From the NCBI GenBank assembly GCA_964017185.1, contig OZ024882.1:41141988-41205987 (forward strand): DNA of 64,000 nt. Reading direction: 5' to 3'. The notes beneath the pieces are model-generated. The model saw only the letters and a program-made list of their open reading frames with translations. It ran no database searches and was not told where the DNA came from. Every line of letters begins with the position of its first letter. Position 1 is the stretch's first letter. The stretch is from Rugalucina vietnamica (taxonomy: Eukaryota > Mollusca > Bivalvia > Lucinida > Lucinidae). A program made the translations under genes and the position numbers. Below, one piece after another: positions 41,147-63,235 of this stretch.

Positions 41147-42985
41147 TCAGTAATGCTCGCGCATTTGTTCCAACGTATTCATCATGTTATTCACCATCAC
41201 CGTGATCAGAATAATACAGATCAGGATCAACAGGAGCCCTAGGGCAATGCTAATTATTGTCAGGTACTTCGCCTTCTTGGTGTGTCTTAGTACTAGAGAG
41301 TCGTCTCGCTCCCAGTCAACAGCGTGGTTAGCCTACAAAGGAGGAAATAAACACAAAACTGACGAAACACCCTATAGAGACATTGTACTCCACAGAATCA
41401 TAGAACGCGTCAATCAATGCTCGTGGAATGAGCACATTGTTTTTTACAAAATTTTTGACATAGTGGCAAATAGTTTGCTTTTTTTTTCTAGTAATCAGTT
41501 TTGTTTCTGTTCCAGTTTTTTTCAGTTGGTTTCTTTTAAACATTCATCCATGCAATCGAGAGGGGGAAGTTGATCGGTTTCCGTCCAAAAACATATAAAG
41601 TAAATACAGCTAATGCTTTGCCGGTATCGAAGAGGGGAGTGTTATCGTGATCTGTTTATCATCAGGAAAACATGTCCGTGTCTTGAATACCCCCTTAAAC
41701 CCCACTTTTACATGGTAAAACTGGGGTATGCAGGGGTATACCTATTTTCTTATTCTTGCTCCAAAACATATATTGTGGGTACTCGTTAGAACCGCCTCGC
41801 CGAGGCGAATCTAACGCGTACCTACAATCTATGTTTTGAGCGAAAATACTAAAAAATATCATATTTTTTCCAATGAAATTTCCAATTTTTACAGCAGGTG
41901 TATATTGCATGGACAAGTTTTCTTATACACTTACCCGCACTGCATAGTATATAGCACAGATACCAGTACAAGGGCAGCACAGATATCCTAGAATAGAACA
42001 GATGAACCAATCAAATGGCTTTGGCTTTGGTGGTACTAGAACTGTTTCTTGGGGCTGAAAAGTTAATTATTAAAGCACATTCAAAGAAAAGATACAATTT
42101 TTATGCTGGGTCAATATTGTTTATTACAAAGTTTGAAAAACAAAAAGCTGTGCTCCATATCTACTAAGTCTAAAAAACTAATCGCCCACATTCTCAACCC
42201 TGATAACCTAAAAAGAATATGGAATTGATTGAAGCAGAACAAATCCCAAGTCGAGTGGGAAGCTATTTCTCCAAAGGTGATCACTTATTAAAATGATAAT
42301 TGTCCTTATAAAGGCACAAGCAGTGCAAAAATCGTCATCAAAAGATGAAACAAATGGAACGACAACAAAAGTACCGCCTTGGAACGGTATATTATATAAA
42401 GTTACAGAGGATGAAGGATACACCGTATTTTTTTCATTCCGTTTTATATCACTTTCAATAGTACTTTAGCTCATATGGGACTTGCCAGTAAGTAGGTCGG
42501 ACACAAACACGAGAATCCCGAGATAAAACACCTGGCACACCCGCAAGCAGAACTTGGTTAGTCATACCTGTGCCCCGTGTAGGACTCGACCCAACACCAG
42601 ACACAGCGGTGAAAAACCGGTCATCTTTGATGGTACGTAATTAACTTAACATCAGAAACACATGTCTGTGAAATGTATACCCCCTTAAACCCCACTTTTA
42701 TGTAGTAAAACAGGGGTTGCAGGGGGTATACATATTTTTCTTAATTTTGCTCCAAACAATAGATTGTGGGTACTCACGTGTGGGACTCGACCACGTGTAC
42801 ACACAATCTATGTTTTGAGCAAAAATAAGAAAAATAAAAAAAATCCATTGAAAATTTTCAATTTTTACAACTTTAGAAATTTTATTTGTATTACATGGGT
42901 GTGTTTTCGTATTAATACCGTACCATATTGACGAGTTCTGTGTCACTGTTGGTGTTGTATTGCCTGTTATACATCGTGGAAGATA
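41147..42985 (-). CDS. CD225/dispanin-family two-pass membrane protein, gene 1 (5' exon unresolved)
   Basis: Minus-strand exons 42985-42924, 42054-41935 and 41332-41147 join in phase; the last two are exact at 40 codons and 62 codons including TGA. Protein features: MYNRQYNTNSDTELVNM, a proline-rich spacer, then the CD225 pattern of hydrophobic segment 1 with cysteines (DWFICSILGYLCCPCTG), a conserved A..YYAVRANHAVDWERDD loop, LRHTKKAKYL, and hydrophobic segment 2 (SIALGLLLILICIILITVMV). Relatives include IFITM and SynDIG/PRRT proteins, membrane-curvature or trafficking factors; the role here is unknown. The first exon shown begins mid-codon, so translation may start upstream or at ATG 42974. 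Two MITEs and a SINE lie in its introns. Confidence 0.8.
41658..41926 (+). mobile_element. Hairpin MITE family 1, in CD225 gene 1, 9 bp from a splice donor
   Basis: Ends catcaggaaaacatgtccgt and gcatggacaagttttcttat. Palindrome gttagaaccgcctcgccgaggcg at 41786-41808. The exon donor is at 41934 on the minus strand, so the MITE begins almost at the 5' splice site. Confidence 0.85.
42466..42620 (-). mobile_element. tRNA-derived SINE, degenerate copy, in CD225 gene 1 intron
   Basis: Matches the complement of the SINE body (cctggcacacccgcaagcag, aacttgg) and a damaged head (ggactcgacccaacaccaga, cacagcggtg). Confidence 0.7.
42650..42915 (+). mobile_element. Hairpin MITE family 1, in CD225 gene 1, 8 bp from a splice donor
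   Basis: Ends catcagaaacacatgtctgt and gggtgtgttttcgtatta. The central palindrome is partly deleted (tactcacgtgtgggactcga). Its right end is 8 bp from the donor of the exon ending at 42924. Confidence 0.8.
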
Positions 42986-48792: not shown

Positions 48793-49210
48793 GAGATAAG
48801 GCATATTGTCCAATTTGTGAAAGCTGATTTTGCGCTTTAATTAAAAGATATTTTCAAAGGTGTTTACTGAAAAAGTTTGGTGATTATGTTCCACTTTGTT
48901 GTTGATTTTTCTTGAAAGTGGCATATTGGTCTTTTTGTTCTGACACTACAGATGTCTGTCAAAAGCTGGTGTTTTGCAGATAACTTTCTATAGTTAAACA
49001 AGAGATAAGGCATATTGTCCAATTTGTGAAAGCTGATTTTGCGCTTTAATTAAAAGATATTTTCAAAGGTGTTTACTGAAAAAGTTTGGTGATTATGTTC
49101 CACTTTGTTGTTGATTTTTCTTGAAAGTGGCATATTGGTCTTTTTGTTCTGACACTACAGATGTCTGTCAAAAGCTGGTGTTTTGCAGATAACTTTCTAT
49201 AGTTAAACAA
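48793..49210. repeat. Perfect 209-bp tandem duplication
   Basis: 48793-49001 (gagataaggcatattgtcc to tagttaaaca) repeats as 49002-49210, and I see no differences by eye. Either very recent or an assembly effect. The rest of 49210-50200 holds only a poly-A run and no recognised gene. Confidence 0.85.
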
Positions 49211-50470: not shown

Positions 50471-53400
50471 CTACGAAAGACCATTATCAGAAGTTAGAAA
50501 CACACTTTTATAACCGTACGAGTGCCGATAAGAGTTTCCGCCGACAATGATGATAATCACACAGATGACGGTCAGGACTGCACCAATACTGATGCTGGTC
50601 AGGGTCAGACACTTGGCTCTTTTAGTGTGGCTTATGATCAACTCCTCGTCTCGCTCAAAATCCACGGCATGGTTGGCCTAGAAAATGGTAAAACTGAATA
50701 TAAAAATGATGATTTTTTGCTTAAGTGCATATAACAACTTTGCTCAGGCGTTTCTAACATGTCTGCACACTATCTTTCAGAAACTGCATTTTTCAAAATC
50801 TCACTTTTCTGAAAAGCCACAAGAAAAATAAGACCATGTCATTTTTTTGCAACCCAAAAGTCCTAATAAGTGCCGCAAATTTTTTGGAAAAGATAATTAC
50901 CCAAAAATTGTTTTGAATAGGCCTTTTGCATGTGCAAGGGAGGTAATCCAAACGCCTTAAAAATGAAAATCAAGCTTACCTGTGGAATAATTTTAAGAGT
51001 TTGGCACTCAGCTATCCATACATAGAATTTTGTTTTGGTTTGGTGCATTTTTATGAAAAAAAAATAACCAGTTTATATTTTTCCCGGGAAAATAGTTACT
51101 TCCCTTGCTGACATTTTTACAATGGAGAAAGCCCTATTCAAAACTATTTACTGGCATAAATTTTTTATTTGTTAACCGATTTTCAAAATTTTTGTGGCAC
51201 TGTTTAAGACTTTTGGAATGCAAAATGGTGACGTGGTAATATTTTTCTTGATGTCTTTCAGAAAAGTGAGATTTTGAAAAATGCAATTTTTGGAAGATGC
51301 TGTGCAGACAGTAGTTAATATTTGTTTTTCAGTCATGTTGCTGGAGACAGAGAACCATCACTTCCTGGGTGTAAAACGATCCTAATGTGGGGGTGTGGTG
51401 AAGTAGGTATCGCACCATACTTCCAAAAGGCCATTGCACTCTCCGCCTAGAAAATGACGAAAACTGGCATTAAAGCATTGGCCGTGAAGCACCATAGCCT
51501 TACTATAATTCAACCTAGATCGTGTTTGTGTATGTGTGTGTGTGGGGGGGATGGGGGGTAAATATGGAAGCAGTCGCATATTCAGAGCTGGACAACTAGC
51601 AACAAGCCTTCTCAGTCTGTGGAACATCACAAAACCAGAGGACCAATGGTCCTGTAAACGCTCACCTGAGATCAGCTGCATATACCAATAAACATGTTTG
51701 AATATTATGGTATTTAACTCCAGTGCAGGGGCAGATGAAGCCCTTGGGCCATTTTCTTTTTTCAGAATCTTCAATATTCTGTCCATTTGCCAATTTCCTG
51801 TTGGCTTTTTCCTTCAAATGACATTTTAACAGTTTTCCCAATTCAGATGCATAGGCAACCCATGTTGACCTTGCCATAAACTTGGTCAAGGTCATCACAG
51901 GGTCATGATTTATATATACATTGGAGTACTTTAGCCATCGATGCCTCACGCCAAGTTTCCTTGAAATCAGTCTATTGGTTTCAGAGAAGATGATTTTTGA
52001 TGGGTTTTTACCATATATGGGCATGGCGGCCATCTTGGTCATGTGACCTAGATTATTTATATACACATTGATTCCCCTATTCTATAGATGCTTCACATAA
52101 AATTTGGCTTTGTTTGGCCAAGCGGTTTCAGAGGAGAAGACGTTTGAATATTAAGGAAATATACATGTATATTGCCCCGGGGTGGGGGCACATGAGCCCC
52201 TGGGGTCCAATTTTTTCAGAATCATTAATATTCAGTCCTACTGCCCATTTCCTGCAAGACTTTCACTTTAAATGACATTTTAAAAGTTTTCCCCATTCAA
52301 ATGCATTCGCGACCTATGTTGACCTTGCCGTAAAATAGGTCAAGGTCATCACAGGGTCATGATTTATATACACATTGTAGTGCTTGAGCCATCGATGCTT
52401 CATGCCAAGTTTCGTTGAAATCGGTCAACCGGTTCTGGAGAAGAAGATTTTTGAAGGGTTTTTACCATATATGGGCATGGCGGCCATCTTGGTCATGTGA
52501 CCTGGATTTCTTATATACACATTGGTTCCCCCTTCCTATTGATGCTTCATATAAAGTTTGGCTTTGATTGACCAAGCGGTTTCAGAGGAGAAGATGTTTG
52601 AATATTATGGAGATATACATGTATATTGCCCCGGGGTGGGGGCACATGAGCCCCTGGGGTCCAATTTTTTTCAGAATCATTAATATTCAGTCCTACTGCC
52701 CATTTCCTGCAAGACTTTCACTTTAAATGACATTTTAAAAGTTTTCCCAATTCAAATGCATTCGCGACCTATGTTGACCTTGCCGTAAAATAGGTCAAGG
52801 TCATCACAGGGTCATAATTTATATACACATTGTAGTGCTTGAGCCATTAATGCTTCATGCCAAGTTTCGTTGAAATCGGTCTACCGGTTCTGGAGAAGAA
52901 GATTTTTGAAGGGTTTTTACCATATATGGGCATGGCGGCCATCTTGGTCATGTGACCTGGATTTCTTATATACATATTTGTTACCCCTTCCTATCGATGC
53001 TTCACATAAAATTTCGCTTTGATTGGCCAAGTGGTTTCAGAGGAGAAGATGTTTGAATATTATGGAGATATACATGTATACTGCCCCGGGGTGGGGGCAC
53101 ATGAGCCCCTGGGGTCCAATTTTTTTCAGAATCATTAATATCCAGCCCTACTGCCCATTTCCTGCAAGACTTTCACTTTAAATGACATTTTAAAAGTTTT
53201 CCCCATTCAAATGCATTCGCGACCTATGTTGACCTTGCCGTAAAATAGGTCAAGGTCATCACAGGGTCATGATTTATATACACATTGTAGTGCTTGAGCC
53301 ATTAATGCTTCATGCCAAGTTTCGTTGAAATCGGTCCACCGGTTCTGGAGAAGAAGATTTTTGAAGGGTTTTTACCATATATGGGCATGGCGGCCCTCTT

Positions 53401-56059
53401 GGTCATGTGATCTGGATTATTTATATATACATTGGTTCCCCCTTCCCATAGATGCTTCATGTAAAATTTCGCTTTGATTGGCCAAGCGGTTTCAGAGGAG
53501 AAGATGTTTGAATATTATGATAATATACATGTATATTGCCCCGGGGTGGGGGCGGATGAGCCCCTGGTGCCCAATTTTTTTCAGAATCATTAATATTCAG
53601 TCCTTCTGCTCATTTTCTGCAATATTTTTCCTTTAAATGACATTTTAACAATTTTTCCCATTCAAATGCAAAGGCGACCTATGTTGACCTTGCCGTAAAA
53701 TAGGTCAAGGTCACCGCAAGGTCATGATTTAAATACACATTGTAGTACTTGAGTCATCGATGCTTCATGCCAAGTTTCGTTGAAATCAGTCTATTGGTTC
53801 CGGAGAAGAAGATTTTTGAAGGGTTTTTACCATATATGGGCATGGCGGCCATCTTGGTCATGTGACCTGAATTATTTATATACACATTGGTTCCCCCTTC
53901 CCATAGATGCTTCATGTAAAATTTGGCTTTGATTGGCCAAGCTGTTTCAGAGAAGAAGATCTTTGAAAATGGTGGACGACGGACGGACGACGGACGGAGC
54001 ATGGGTATACTATAAGCTCACCTTGTGAGACTGACGGCTCAGGTGAGCTAATAAATACTTGTAGCAAACCAGCAAATTCAGAGATATCAGTATGGATAAC
54101 TACATGTATAGCATGCCCAAATATATTTTAAGAAAGCTTCCAAGCATTTCCTGGTATTGAACATGACACAAAAATACTGACATCAAAATGGTGTTTTACA
54201 TGGCGCAGTAAATACTGACTTACCCGAATGGTGTAGTATATGACACAGTGAATAATGGTTTACCCGTATGGCGTAGTATATGACACAGTAAATACTGACT
54301 TACCTGAATGGCATAGTACATGGCGCAGTGAATACCGGCTTACCCAAATCGCGTAGAGCATGGCATGGTAAATACTGATTTATTCGAATGGCGGAATACA
54401 TGAACAGTATATACTTACATTGTATTTACCCGTATGGCGCTTTACTTGGTACAGTAAATACTGACTTATCCGAATGGCGTATTACATGACTCAGTAAATA
54501 CCTACTTACCCGTATGTCGTAGTACACGGCAAAGAAAATACTGACTTACCCGTATGGCGTAGTACACGACAAAGTAAATACTGACTTACCCGTATGGCGT
54601 AGTACACGACAAAGTAAATACTGACTTACCCGTATGTCGTAGTGCATGGAACAGTAAATACTGACTTGCCTGTATGTCGTAGTACACGGCAAAGTAAATA
54701 TTGACTTACCCGTATGCGTAGTACACGACAAAGTAAATACTGACTTACCCGTATGGCGTTGTACACGAAAAAGGAAATACTGACTTACCCGTATTGCGTT
54801 GTACACGACAAAGTAAATACTGACTTACCCGTATGGCGTTGTACACGAAAAAATAAATACTGACTTACCCGTATGGCGTAGTACACGACAAAGTAAATAC
54901 TGACTTACCCGTATGGCGTTGTACACGAAAAAGTAAATACTGACTTACCCGTATGGCGTTGTACACGAAAAAGTAAATACTGACTTACCCGTATGGCGTA
55001 GTACACGACAAATTAAATACTGGCTTACCCGTATGGCATTGTACACGACAAAGTAAATACTGACTTACCCGTATGGCGTTGTACACGAAAAAATAAATAC
55101 TGACTTACCCGTATGGCGTAGTACACGACAAAGTAAATACTGACTTACCCGTATGGCGTTGTACACGAAAAAGTAAATACTGACTTACCCGTATGGCGTT
55201 GTACACGAAAAAGTAAATACTGACTTACCCGTATGGCGTAGTACAAGAAAAAGTAAATACTGACTTACCCGTATGGCGTAGTACATGGCACACATGCCTG
55301 GCCAACAGGCAAAGCACAACAGAGTCCATAAGTAGCCAAAGACAGAGCAGATCAGCCAATCATAGGGTCTGTTCTTGACTCGCACGGTATTTGACGCCTG
55401 GCCCTGGAATATAGTCAGCTATGATTTACAATGCAAGGCTTTGAAATGGTACGCCTAAAAATATAACCACACTTCTTATATTTTGAGAAAATCCATCCCT
55501 TTCGAAAGCATTGAAAGTCGTATGTTGACTATGAATTCATGTACTTGGGCTGCATCATTATGTCAATTTTTGGTCAAAGATACAATATATATACACACAC
55601 TGTAGACCTAGTGCTACAGTAACGTCTTAGTAGGGTTATTGAAAGATGACAGTAAGATGGTTCTACTCTTTCAAACTCACCAAATTTATCAATTCCGTAT
55701 CACTGTGCTGGTTGTAGTGTTGGTTGTACATATCTGTCCCAGAATATGACATTGGCCTCGTTCCATCTGGAAGTAATACACAGAAGTATAAGCTAACTCG
55801 CTTTTTCCGTGCATGTCATACCATATATACAATCGGATTATCGGTTCTATGAAGGATATCACTTTGAAAGTTTCAAAGGGGACGTCACTGTGCTGCAGTG
55901 GGCTGCGAGTGGAAAGCTGCCCGCTCTTATGGCAGTATTAAAAGTTTGCATTTTAATTTCATTTATTTGTTTGTGTGTTAAGATTTGTATTTTACGAAAT
56001 GGAACAGAACCTCGAAATGTGGACCTACCTTGGAAAGTAATAACGTGTCCCTGGCTCAT
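50471..56059 (-). CDS. CD225/dispanin-family two-pass membrane protein, gene 2 (4 exons, 152 aa)
   Basis: Minus-strand exons 56059-56029 (31 nt), 55766-55681 (86), 55403-55269 (135) and 50677-50471 (207) total 459 nt and close exactly in frame (152 aa plus TAG). The tiny first exon (MSQGHVITFQ) was chosen because its phase, gtaggt donor and position fit. The body shows the CD225 pattern: YDWLICSVFGYLWTLLC, CWPGMCAMYYAIR, ANHAVDFERDEEL, SHTKRAKCL, and membrane segment 2 LTSISIGAVLTVICVIIIIV. Its MYNQHYNQHSDTELINL segment matches MYNRQYNTNSDTELVNM of gene 1, so the two are tandem paralogues. The last intron (4.6 kb) begins with a 40-bp tandem array made of copies of the exon 3 end and its donor. 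Confidence 0.85.
50748..51323. repeat. Foldback element inside CD225 gene 2 last intron
   Basis: ctgcacactatctttcagaa..aaatctcacttttctgaaa (50763-50813) recurs inverted at 51258-51315 (ctttcagaaaagtgagattt..gcagac). Inner matches include ttgaataggcctttt against its complement near 51133. The axis is near 51035. Confidence 0.7.
51636..54053 (-). mobile_element. AGCTCACC-type repeat, long copy (about 2.4 kb)
   Basis: On the minus strand it starts ttagctcacctgagccgtca with terminal hairpin and gtccgtcgtccgtccgtcg. It then has about 4.5 tandem units of roughly 455 bp (tgccccggggtgggggc at about 52172, 52626, 53081 and 53536) and ends atctcaggtgagcgtttaca..ccattggtcctctg. The units carry the same phrases (aagatggccgccatgcccat, catatatggtaaaaaccc). 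No transposase is seen. It lies in the last intron of CD225 gene 2. Confidence 0.85.
54186..55268 (-). repeat. 40-bp tandem array of splice-donor/exon-end units
   Basis: The consensus on the minus strand is a 40-bp unit containing tactacgccatacgg|gtaagt, i.e. the last codons of CD225 gene 2 exon 3 (YYAIR) followed by its 5' splice site and 20 bp of intron. I count 26 units beyond the authentic donor at 55268/55269. Of these, 19 keep GTAAGT exactly. Units far from the exon (54.2-54.5 kb) are diverged, while those near it are almost identical, with some three-unit higher-order repetition (120-bp periodicity). Confidence 0.93.
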
Positions 56060-57776: not shown

Positions 57777-59302
57777 TTAGCTTACCTGAGCCGTCAGGCT
57801 CACAAGGTGAGCTTATAGTATACCCATGCTCCGTCGTCCGTCCGTCCGTCCGTCGTCCGTCCGTCGTCCACCATTTTCAAAGATCTTCTCCTCTGAAACC
57901 GCTTGGCCAATCAAAGCCAAATTTTACGTGAAGCATCTATGGGAAGGGGGAACTAATGTGTATATAAATAATCCAGGTCACATGACCAAGATGGCCGCCA
58001 TGCCCATATATGGTAAAAACCCTTCAAAAATCTTCTTCTCCGGAACCACTGGACCGATTTCAACGAAACTTGGCATGAAGCATCGATGGCTCAAGCACTA
58101 CAATGTATATATAAATCATGACCCTATGATGACCTTGACCTATTTTACGGCAAGGTCAACATAGGTCGCGAATGCATTTGAATGGGAAAAATTGTTAAAT
58201 TGTCATTTAAAGGAAAAATCTTGCAGAAAATGAGCAGTAGGACTGAATATTAATGATTCTGAAAAAAAAACTGGGCACCAGGGGCTCATCCGCCCCCACC
58301 CCGGGGCAATATACATGTATATCTCCATAATATTCAAACATCTTCTCCTCTGAAACCGCTTGGCCAATCAAAGCGAAATTTTATGTGAAGCATCAATAGG
58401 AAGGGGTAACAAATATGTATATAAAAAATCCAGGTCACATGACCAAGATGGCCGCCATGCCCATATATGGTAAAAACCGTTCAAAAATCTTCTTCTCCAG
58501 AACCGGTTGACCGAGTTCAACGAAACTTGGCACGAAGCATCGATGGCTCAAGCACTACAATGTGTATATAAATCATGACCCTGTGATGACCTTGACCTAT
58601 TTTACGGGAAGGTCAACATAGGTCACCAATGCATTTGAATGGGGAAAACTTTTAAAATGTCATTTAAAGTGAAAGTCTTGCAGGAAATGGGCAGTAGGAC
58701 TGGATATTAATGATTCTGAAAAAAATTGGACCCCAGGGGCTCATGTGCCCCCACCCCGGGGCAATATACATGTATATTTCCATAATATTCAAACGTCTTC
58801 TCCTCTGAAACCGCTTGGCCAAACAAAGCCAAATTTTAAGTGAAGCATCTATAGAATGGGGGAATCAATGTGTATATAAATAATCTAGGTCACATGACCA
58901 AGATGGCCGCCATGCCCATATATGGTAAAAACCCATCAAAAATCATCTTCTCTGAAACCAATCGACTGATTTCAAGGAAACTTGGCGTGAGGCATCGATG
59001 GCTAAAGTACTCCAATGTATATATAAATCATGACCCTGTGATGACCTTGACCAAGTTTATGGCAAGGTCAACATGGGTTGCCTGTGCATCTGAATTGGGA
59101 AAACTGTTAAAATGTCATTTGAAGGAAAAAGCCAACAGGAAATTGGCAAATGGACAGAATATTGAAGATTCTGAAAAAAGAAAATGGCCCAAGGGCTTAT
59201 CTGCCCCTGCACTGGAGTTAAATACCATAATATTCAAACATGTTTATTGACCAGTATATGCAGCTGATCTCAGGTGAGCGTTTACAGGACCATTGGTCCT
59301 CT
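57777..59302 (+). mobile_element. AGCTCACC-type repeat, copy inverted relative to 51.6-54.1 kb
   Basis: Starts ttagcttacctgagccgtca with gtccgtccgtccgtccgtcg, has three internal units, and ends atctcaggtgagcgtttaca..ccattggtcctctg. The last 400 bp are almost identical to 51650-52070 in reverse complement. Confidence 0.85.
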
Positions 59303-61939: not shown

Positions 61940-63235
61940 GAATAATTCATACCGTAAACACATGGAGCAGTTTACATGCTTGAGAAGTGTCAACTCAATA
62001 AAAACCGAAAACATACGGAGCAGTGGTAAACGAGAACTCAGAGACTACCGAAAACATGTGTAGCAGGGGTAAATAAAAATAAATATATACCAAAAACATA
62101 CATAGAAAAAATTAGAGGCTATACATCTATGAGTAAAATACAACTACATATTTAAAACGTGCAGAAACATCTGAGGCTATGCATATTGAAAACAAGCGGA
62201 AATCAGTGTCTATACATACTGAAAACATGCGCAGTGGGGATTAAGAAAGATTCGAGGTTATACATACTGAAAACATGCATTGCAGGGGTTATAGAAAAAA
62301 ATAGAGGCTATGCATCATGACTGAAAACATACGTAGCAGGAGTAAAGAAACATCAGAAAATATGCATACTGAAAACATGCATAACAGGGGTATAGAAACA
62401 TTAGAGGCTATGCATACCGAAACATACGAAGCAGGAGTCAAGAAACATCGCAGAATACACATACCAAAAACATGCGTAAGTATGGGTTAAGAAAATTAGC
62501 TATACATACCGAAATCAGGCGTAGCAGGAATAAGAAACACCAGAGACTATACATACCGAAAACATGCGTAGCAGGGGTATTGAAACATCAAAGACTATAC
62601 ATGCAGTAAACATGCTCAGCATGGTTGAAGAAAAAACGAAAACATGCCTTGTAGGGTAAAGAAAAATCGGAGGCTATTCATACCGAAAACATGCCTTTCA
62701 TGTGTAAAGGAAAGTCGGAGACTATGCACACCGAAAACACGCCTTGCAGGTGAGACTTTACATACTGAAAGCATGCCTTGCATGTGTAAAGAAACATCAG
62801 AGACTATATATATACACCGAAAACACGCCTTGCATGTGTAAAGAAAAATCAGAGACTGTGCATACCGAAAACATGCCTTGCAGGTGTAAAGAAAAATCAG
62901 AGACTATGCATACACCGAAAACACGCCTTGCATGTGTAAAGAAAAATCAGAGACTTTGCATACCGAAACATGCCTTGCAGGTGTAAAGAAAAATCAGAGA
63001 CTTTGCATACCGAAACATGCCTTGCAGGTGTAAAGGTAAATCAGAGACTAAGCATACCGAAAATATGCCTTGCAGGTGTAAAGAAAAATCAGAGACTTTG
63101 CATACCGAAAACACGCCTTGCAGGTGTAAAGAAAAATGCTTTGCCTTGCAGGGGTAAAGAAAAAAATCAGAGGCTATATGAATACCAAAAACATGTGTGG
63201 AACAGATGTAAAAAAAACAACAACAACCAAAAACA
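61940..63235. repeat. 47-50-bp minisatellite downstream of the fucosyltransferase exon
   Basis: Units of the type accgaaaacatgccttgcag / gtgtaaagaaaaatcagaga / ctatgcat recur about 25 times. Left units are strongly diverged and those at 62.8-63.1 kb nearly uniform, with 47- and 50-bp length variants (for example starts at 62828, 62874, 62924, 62971). Open frames across it are by-products. Confidence 0.9.

Follow-up and report, generated by a model that had tools for sequence, protein, structure and literature searches.

The window analysed here is a stretch of 64,000 nucleotides from the genome of the lucinid bivalve Rugalucina vietnamica (contig OZ024882.1), and positions below are counted along it unless stated otherwise. 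Two paralogous genes, gene 1 and gene 2, lie on its minus strand. Exon 2 of gene 2 was located by tblastn within the window and by sequence at about 55681-55767 (its 5' boundary being approximate), with the coding part DGTRPMSYSGTDMYNQHYNQHSDTELINL and a GTGAGT donor. Exon 3 (55269-55403), delimited by sequence, translation and protein homology, is 135 nt long and in phase 0, with the GT of intron 3 starting from 55268; its own donor, CGG/GTAAGT at 55263-55271 (a slash marks the splice junction), forms a U1 duplex of -11.4 kcal/mol (RNA.duplexfold). The coding part of exon 4 (50471-50677) follows the acceptor ...TTTTCTAG/GCC and holds the normal stop. Upon inspection of the sequence, the frames of exons 2-4 are intact and the splice sites consensus-like.

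The spliced protein of gene 2 shows 55% identity to the product of gene 1 over 69 alignment columns and 60% identity over 78 columns to a database protein (P0001), with five alignment columns of additional residues in exon 3 compared with both. Furthermore, a database protein of 55 aa from an unknown species matches the exon 2 peptide at 22 of 24 residues. The preliminary description had presented gene 2 as a CD225 gene, and both the homology and an intron position common to CD225 paralogs agree with this, but gene 2 scores only 13.5 bits against Pfam CD225 (PF04505), under the cut-off of 27.1, and is outranked there by a weak DUF996 match (16.9 for a cut-off of 31.3). Given that its homologs gene 1 (30.3) and P0001 (35.7) both pass the CD225 cut-off, we term gene 2 CD225-related. 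A protein search of the genome with the gene 2 product returned at least nine exon matches, all on contig C14, which we read as at least four genes (exons 3 and 4 of gene 3, which lie 20 kb apart, being assumed to belong to one gene). In genes 1, 3 and 4 exon 3 likewise closes after YYA-V/I-R codons with a GT donor next to it, and this donor is single in each: CGG/GTAAGT in gene 1 (exon 3 region at 41929-42066, minus strand, devoid of any array and used as comparison locus), AGG/GTAGGT in gene 3 (L014) and AGA/GTAAGT in gene 4 (L016).

On the minus strand, exon 3 of gene 2 runs immediately into a tandem array whose majority 40-bp unit is GTACTACGCCATACGG/GTAAGTCAGTATTTACTTTGTCGT. The array adjoins exon 3 and takes in its authentic donor, the copy that belongs to the exon occupying 55284-55245. 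We recovered the 26 further copies that had been described past the exon, in register at 55244-54200 (24 of 40 bp, one of 39 and one of 46), followed by a decayed last copy without GT donor at 54163-54199; TRF reports a period of 40 and 26.9 copies. A GT is present in 23 of the 26 extra units and, in agreement with the earlier count, a perfect GTAAGT in 19. The 13 proximal extra units (54725-55244) carry 1-4 differences each from the majority and 12 of them a perfect GTAAGT, compared to 0-12 differences and 7 of 13 for the distal units (54200-54724). A 20th GTAAGT, out of register, sits within the insertion of the 46-bp unit (54445-54400). Altogether 20 GTAAGT are found in the 1045-bp extra-unit stretch versus 14 in the remaining 62.96 kb of the minus strand, and 0.3 in a mononucleotide shuffle of the same stretch. 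Individual units also show changes of their own: at 54379-54384 the donor region of one unit now reads GAATAAAT and contains AATAAA, a signal found just twice on the minus strand of intron 3, while the unit at 54298-54306 reads CAG/GTAAGT, the AG straight before the donor giving it the form of a recursive-splicing site, with no good pyrimidine tract visible by eye.

To place this array in its genomic context, 201 bases of exon end and units were searched against the genome (1.09 Gb, 47 contigs), the best candidates only being scored. All 13 matches fall within this array, and at the sensitivity of such a best-candidate search no unit was seen elsewhere in the genome. In the rest of the window only weak matches to the unit were obtained (E 0.07 to 0.83), two of which are the homologous exon end of gene 1, and outside the array neither strand of the window holds any two GTAAGT separated by 18-60 bp, nor a GGTAAGT triplet. 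The array was not found in viral contigs with an exact 29-base pattern. Other tandem repeats do occur in the window: a minisatellite with a 48-bp unit and about 19 copies at 62202-63137 (TRF), and a 209-bp tandem duplication at 48793-49210 whose copies match at 100% (TRF), a sign of very recent origin or of duplication in the assembly. A 455-bp tandem repeat occupies 51757-53976 within intron 3 of gene 2 (TRF, 4.9 copies) and is found again, inverted, upstream of exon 2 at 57867-59179 (2.9 copies, best identity 96%); base pairing in RNA between these inverted copies, which flank exons 2-3, might promote back-splicing or editing.

The origin of the unit can be read from its most distal copies. 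When the eight most distal units are reduced to a consensus, its last 8 and first 16 positions read TGTGCCATGTACTACGCCATTCGG, which is identical at 23 of 24 nt to the end of exon 3, TGTGCCATGTACTACGCCATACGG, the single mismatch being a synonymous third position of an Ile codon. Homology of the distal consensus to exon 3 ends upstream of those 24 nt, and therefore the founding duplication took 24 exonic and 16 intronic nt, which places the putative ancestral segment at 55253-55292 (minus strand; last 24 nt of exon 3 and first 16 nt of intron 3). The founding unit thus comprised eight codons (CAMYYAIR) plus 16 nt of intron 3, a true duplication of exon end and donor. That the exon end and its donor are what is repeated had been recognised beforehand, but the exonic part of the ancestral unit is 24 nt and not 16. 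The additional upstream 8 exonic nt are kept at 4-5 of 8 positions in proximal units versus 4-7 of 8 in distal ones, retention following unit order with the distal units better preserved (Spearman 0.72, P 3e-5, 26 junctions). The proximal units have since altered these 8 nt and then spread in altered form. In this comparison, as in the conservation test below, the insertion of the 46-bp unit was trimmed by hand to 40 columns.

As for the growth of the array, the divergence of units from the exon copy increases with distance as had been noted (Spearman 0.80, P 9e-7, 26 units). Within the proximal half, 55244-55005 and 55004-54765 form a six-unit duplication, identical at 234 of 240 positions at an offset of 240 bp and including an exact run of 207 bp (55245 to 55039), which is the newest visible event of the array. 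The proposal of growth at the exon-proximal side is consequently kept for the recent expansion of the proximal half but not for a unit-by-unit growth at the exon border, the newest event being a block of six units. Such an exact run at a 240-bp offset could also be a misassembled duplicate, so that the length of the array would be inflated, or else collapsed, in the assembly; given that several units have private differences, that 6 of 240 positions distinguish the two six-unit blocks and that the array lies in a contig of 53.4 Mb, we consider this highly improbable. The sequence shows a minisatellite that arose when 24 nt of exon 3 and 16 nt of intron 3 were duplicated in tandem, and that then expanded and was homogenised, most lately in its exon-proximal half.

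In order to assess whether the donors are maintained within the units, departures from the majority were counted column by column. The nine donor positions show 13 departures versus 23.4 on average in stretches of nine positions, with a column permutation P of 0.095 for the donor 9-mer against the rest of the unit; GTAAGT alone gives P 0.20 and the wider 13 positions CCATACGGGTAAG P 0.074. This is a hint that the donors are better kept than the remaining unit, with fewer changes than average but short of significance. Given that the excess is not significant, the donors probably persist through the copying of units rather than through selection on each of them. A hairpin hiding each donor, in which GTAAGT pairs with ATTTAC around a CAGT loop, was considered as well. 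It is complete in the consensus, and 90.4% of cells pair compared to 27-66% in six slid versions, a difference to be expected of a structure taken from the consensus. The pairing equals that of shuffles (mean 90.7%), and in a covariation test on 26 of the 27 units (19 distinct rows, the 46-bp unit at 54445-54400 omitted) no pair was changed on both sides; the hairpin was therefore rejected. Folding of the array did not differ significantly from shuffles for one, two or three units (z of -0.46, -1.34 and -1.46 respectively), and a stretch of gene 1 exon 3 gave z -1.20.

To evaluate the consequences for the mRNA, each donor position was joined in silico to the acceptor at 50677 and codons were counted from the start of exon 3. 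Only the own donor of exon 3 keeps the frame to the normal stop, after 113 codons. The 26 alternative junctions (three of which are hypothetical, their GT being lost) all stop early, after 65, 84 or 72 codons, which confirms the expectation that the use of different units would shift the frame. Extensions 1 and 2 end within exon 4, after 65 and 84 codons respectively. From extension 3 onward the stop comes after 72 codons; its distance to the downstream junction is 36 nt in extension 3 and 76 nt in extension 4. The straight-through stop that had been placed near 55185 indeed lies there, as the 73rd codon from the exon 3 start. Nonsense-mediated decay (NMD) follows the usual 50-55 nt rule and, given these distances from stop to junction, extensions 1-3 would escape it whereas longer ones would be subject to it, provided that exon 4 is the final exon, as we assumed. 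No read-through isoform was found in the protein database, where the search returned one protein with the exon 2 peptide and no array residues.

The true site does not stand out by its pairing with U1. Its -11.4 kcal/mol is matched by many units and exceeded by those at 54303 (-12.1) and 54509 (-13.0), and 21 of the 26 extra donors pair at -9.2 kcal/mol or better; the choice of donor must therefore rest on position, exon length or other signals. Concerning position, a preference for the intron-proximal donor is commonly described as general. In PMC6002489, a natural ER-alpha case is described in which the intron-proximal one of two similar donors is used, and by this case and the general preference distal units of the array might win over the own donor of exon 3. 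The portion of PMC1877881 at hand gives no usable baseline for donor preference. Taken further, gene 2 could be a paralog that is decaying or yields little product, the intron-proximal donor winning and the array mostly wrecking the splicing of exon 3. Strong donors do lie at the intron-proximal end, at 54303 (CAG/GTAAGT) and 54223, and the low CD225 score (13.5 versus 27.1 bits) and the five extra alignment columns in exon 3 point the same way. However, the open frames and consensus-like splice sites of exons 2-4 and the near-identity of the exon 2 peptide (22/24) in the record of unknown species argue against decay, and we regard this explanation as unlikely.

A different role would follow from U1 binding itself, the preliminary description having suggested a U1 platform or a dosage control. 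The U1 footprint is quoted as 23 + 12 nt, that is 35 nt, in PMC6002489 (citing Sharma 2011). The 40-nt pitch is just above this value, so that U1 could sit side by side, one per unit, and on this spacing alone a platform or dosage control is possible. In its full form, the array would load many U1 particles, shield the 4.6-kb repeat-rich intron 3 from premature polyadenylation or speed its splicing, and be kept for that purpose. The pitch and the good pairing of 21 of the 26 extra donors are in line with it. On the other hand, the excess conservation of the donors is not significant, the paralogs manage without an array, and the minus strand of intron 3 has two AATAAA and no ATTAAA, that is 0.44 AATAAA per kb compared to 1.30 per kb on the minus strand of the window as a whole. 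With so few poly(A) signals there is little needing protection, and telescripting was rejected for this reason; overall we hold a selected platform to be very unlikely. A related proposal, a U1 "rail" in which a U1 particle would occupy every unit, almost closely packed at the 40-nt pitch, about 24 donors would compete for one acceptor and array length would tune CD225-related output as a selected or at least heritable dial, is given equally little credence.

The array was next compared to known repeats. The preliminary description knew of no described case of this form, which does not hold, since human ABCA7 and CBS both have donor-including VNTRs. In ABCA7 (PMC5954066), a 25-bp VNTR of 23.7 reference units in intron 18 directly flanks exon 18 and includes its donor. 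Use of the donor one unit further in leads to a frameshift and a premature termination codon, and the same work lists two frameshifting isoforms, an exon 18 cryptic acceptor at 14% and, as a minor isoform, unit retention at 2%. With greater VNTR length expression falls, being 33% lower for the largest versus the smallest allele pair, and exon 19 is skipped more often (PMC5954066). The gene 2 array resembles this VNTR, as described there, in that it adjoins the exon, its first GT is the authentic donor and its unit is not a multiple of 3. It differs in that the ABCA7 unit is described as beginning at the GT without exon end, compared to 24 exonic nt here, and in that the ABCA7 VNTR is highly polymorphic (about 12 to 427 units) and disease-associated (PMC5954066). 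The gene 2 array, for its part, has GTAAGT in 19 of 26 extra units and is known from one assembly.

In CBS, the alternative donors of a 31-bp VNTR are reportedly used in mRNA, and the repeat is said to reduce activity, to judge by the title of the work cited for it, reportedly Lievers 2001. PMC2630376 gives this VNTR as c.1444_1467+7(16_21), with 16-21 units, and by these coordinates its unit holds 24 exonic and 7 intronic nt, so that exon end and donor are in every unit as in gene 2. CBS is an unrelated gene for which there are population data and its unit is 31 bp instead of 40 bp; PMC7277093, in the part available, does not mention the VNTR. The gene 2 array joins the type formed by ABCA7 and CBS, with many strong donors. 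No third donor-including VNTR was found among the matches listed in the open-licence literature, and both precedents being human, this array is probably the first outside mammals among those matches. Such repeats are a rare but already described kind, which in human genes can accompany disturbed splicing. The present locus shows an exon end and donor turning into a minisatellite without loss of the coding frame in the first copy, and its many near-equal, evenly spaced donors offer a clean natural test of the choice between tandem 5' splice sites, where intron-proximal preference and exon length compete as rules.

Together, these data are best explained, with reasonable though not high confidence, by a non-selected donor VNTR with a dominant first donor, some frameshifted mRNA and a mild loss of output. 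U1 may bind many units in the transcript, and the own donor of exon 3, whose use leaves the exon shortest (135 nt) and alone keeps the frame intact, would be the main choice. A small share of splicing would go to nearby units and yield frameshifted or stop-containing mRNA, extensions 1-3 possibly giving truncated protein and longer ones being predicted NMD targets. Much as in ABCA7, the array would be a mild brake on the yield of productive mRNA, one that is not under selection, its length possibly lowering output, an outcome we expect because ABCA7 is taken as the best guide. In PMC5954066, however, VNTR length had no effect on unit retention or NMD and the authors cite other causes for the expression drop, which counts against a simple brake in which more donors make more noise and slightly lowers our confidence in the non-selected brake. 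Among such causes, they proposed factor binding to the VNTR (PMC5954066). By analogy, and since the use of the array in splicing is itself inferred, the gene 2 array might act, if at all, at the DNA level through protein binding or recombination unrelated to splicing, which we consider extremely unlikely.

Duplicated splice junctions also occur on the acceptor side. In CBS 844_845ins68 (PMC2630376), a naturally occurring tandem duplication has produced an exon/intron junction whose splice sites compete, as in gene 2, but it concerns the acceptor side (intron 7/exon 8 junction) and adds one copy only. In the paralog gene 3 (L014:1386-1525; G000:C14, about 48.3626 Mb), the exon 3 acceptor and the first exon nucleotides are tandemly duplicated (TRF period 71, 2.0 copies), with AAG in the upstream copy and CAG in the exon-adjoining one. 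This arrangement mirrors the donor array of gene 2 and resembles CBS 844ins68. At the other end of the same exon, a degenerate pentanucleotide array, (ATAAC)n, begins 9 bases past the exon 3 end (L014:1629-1695).
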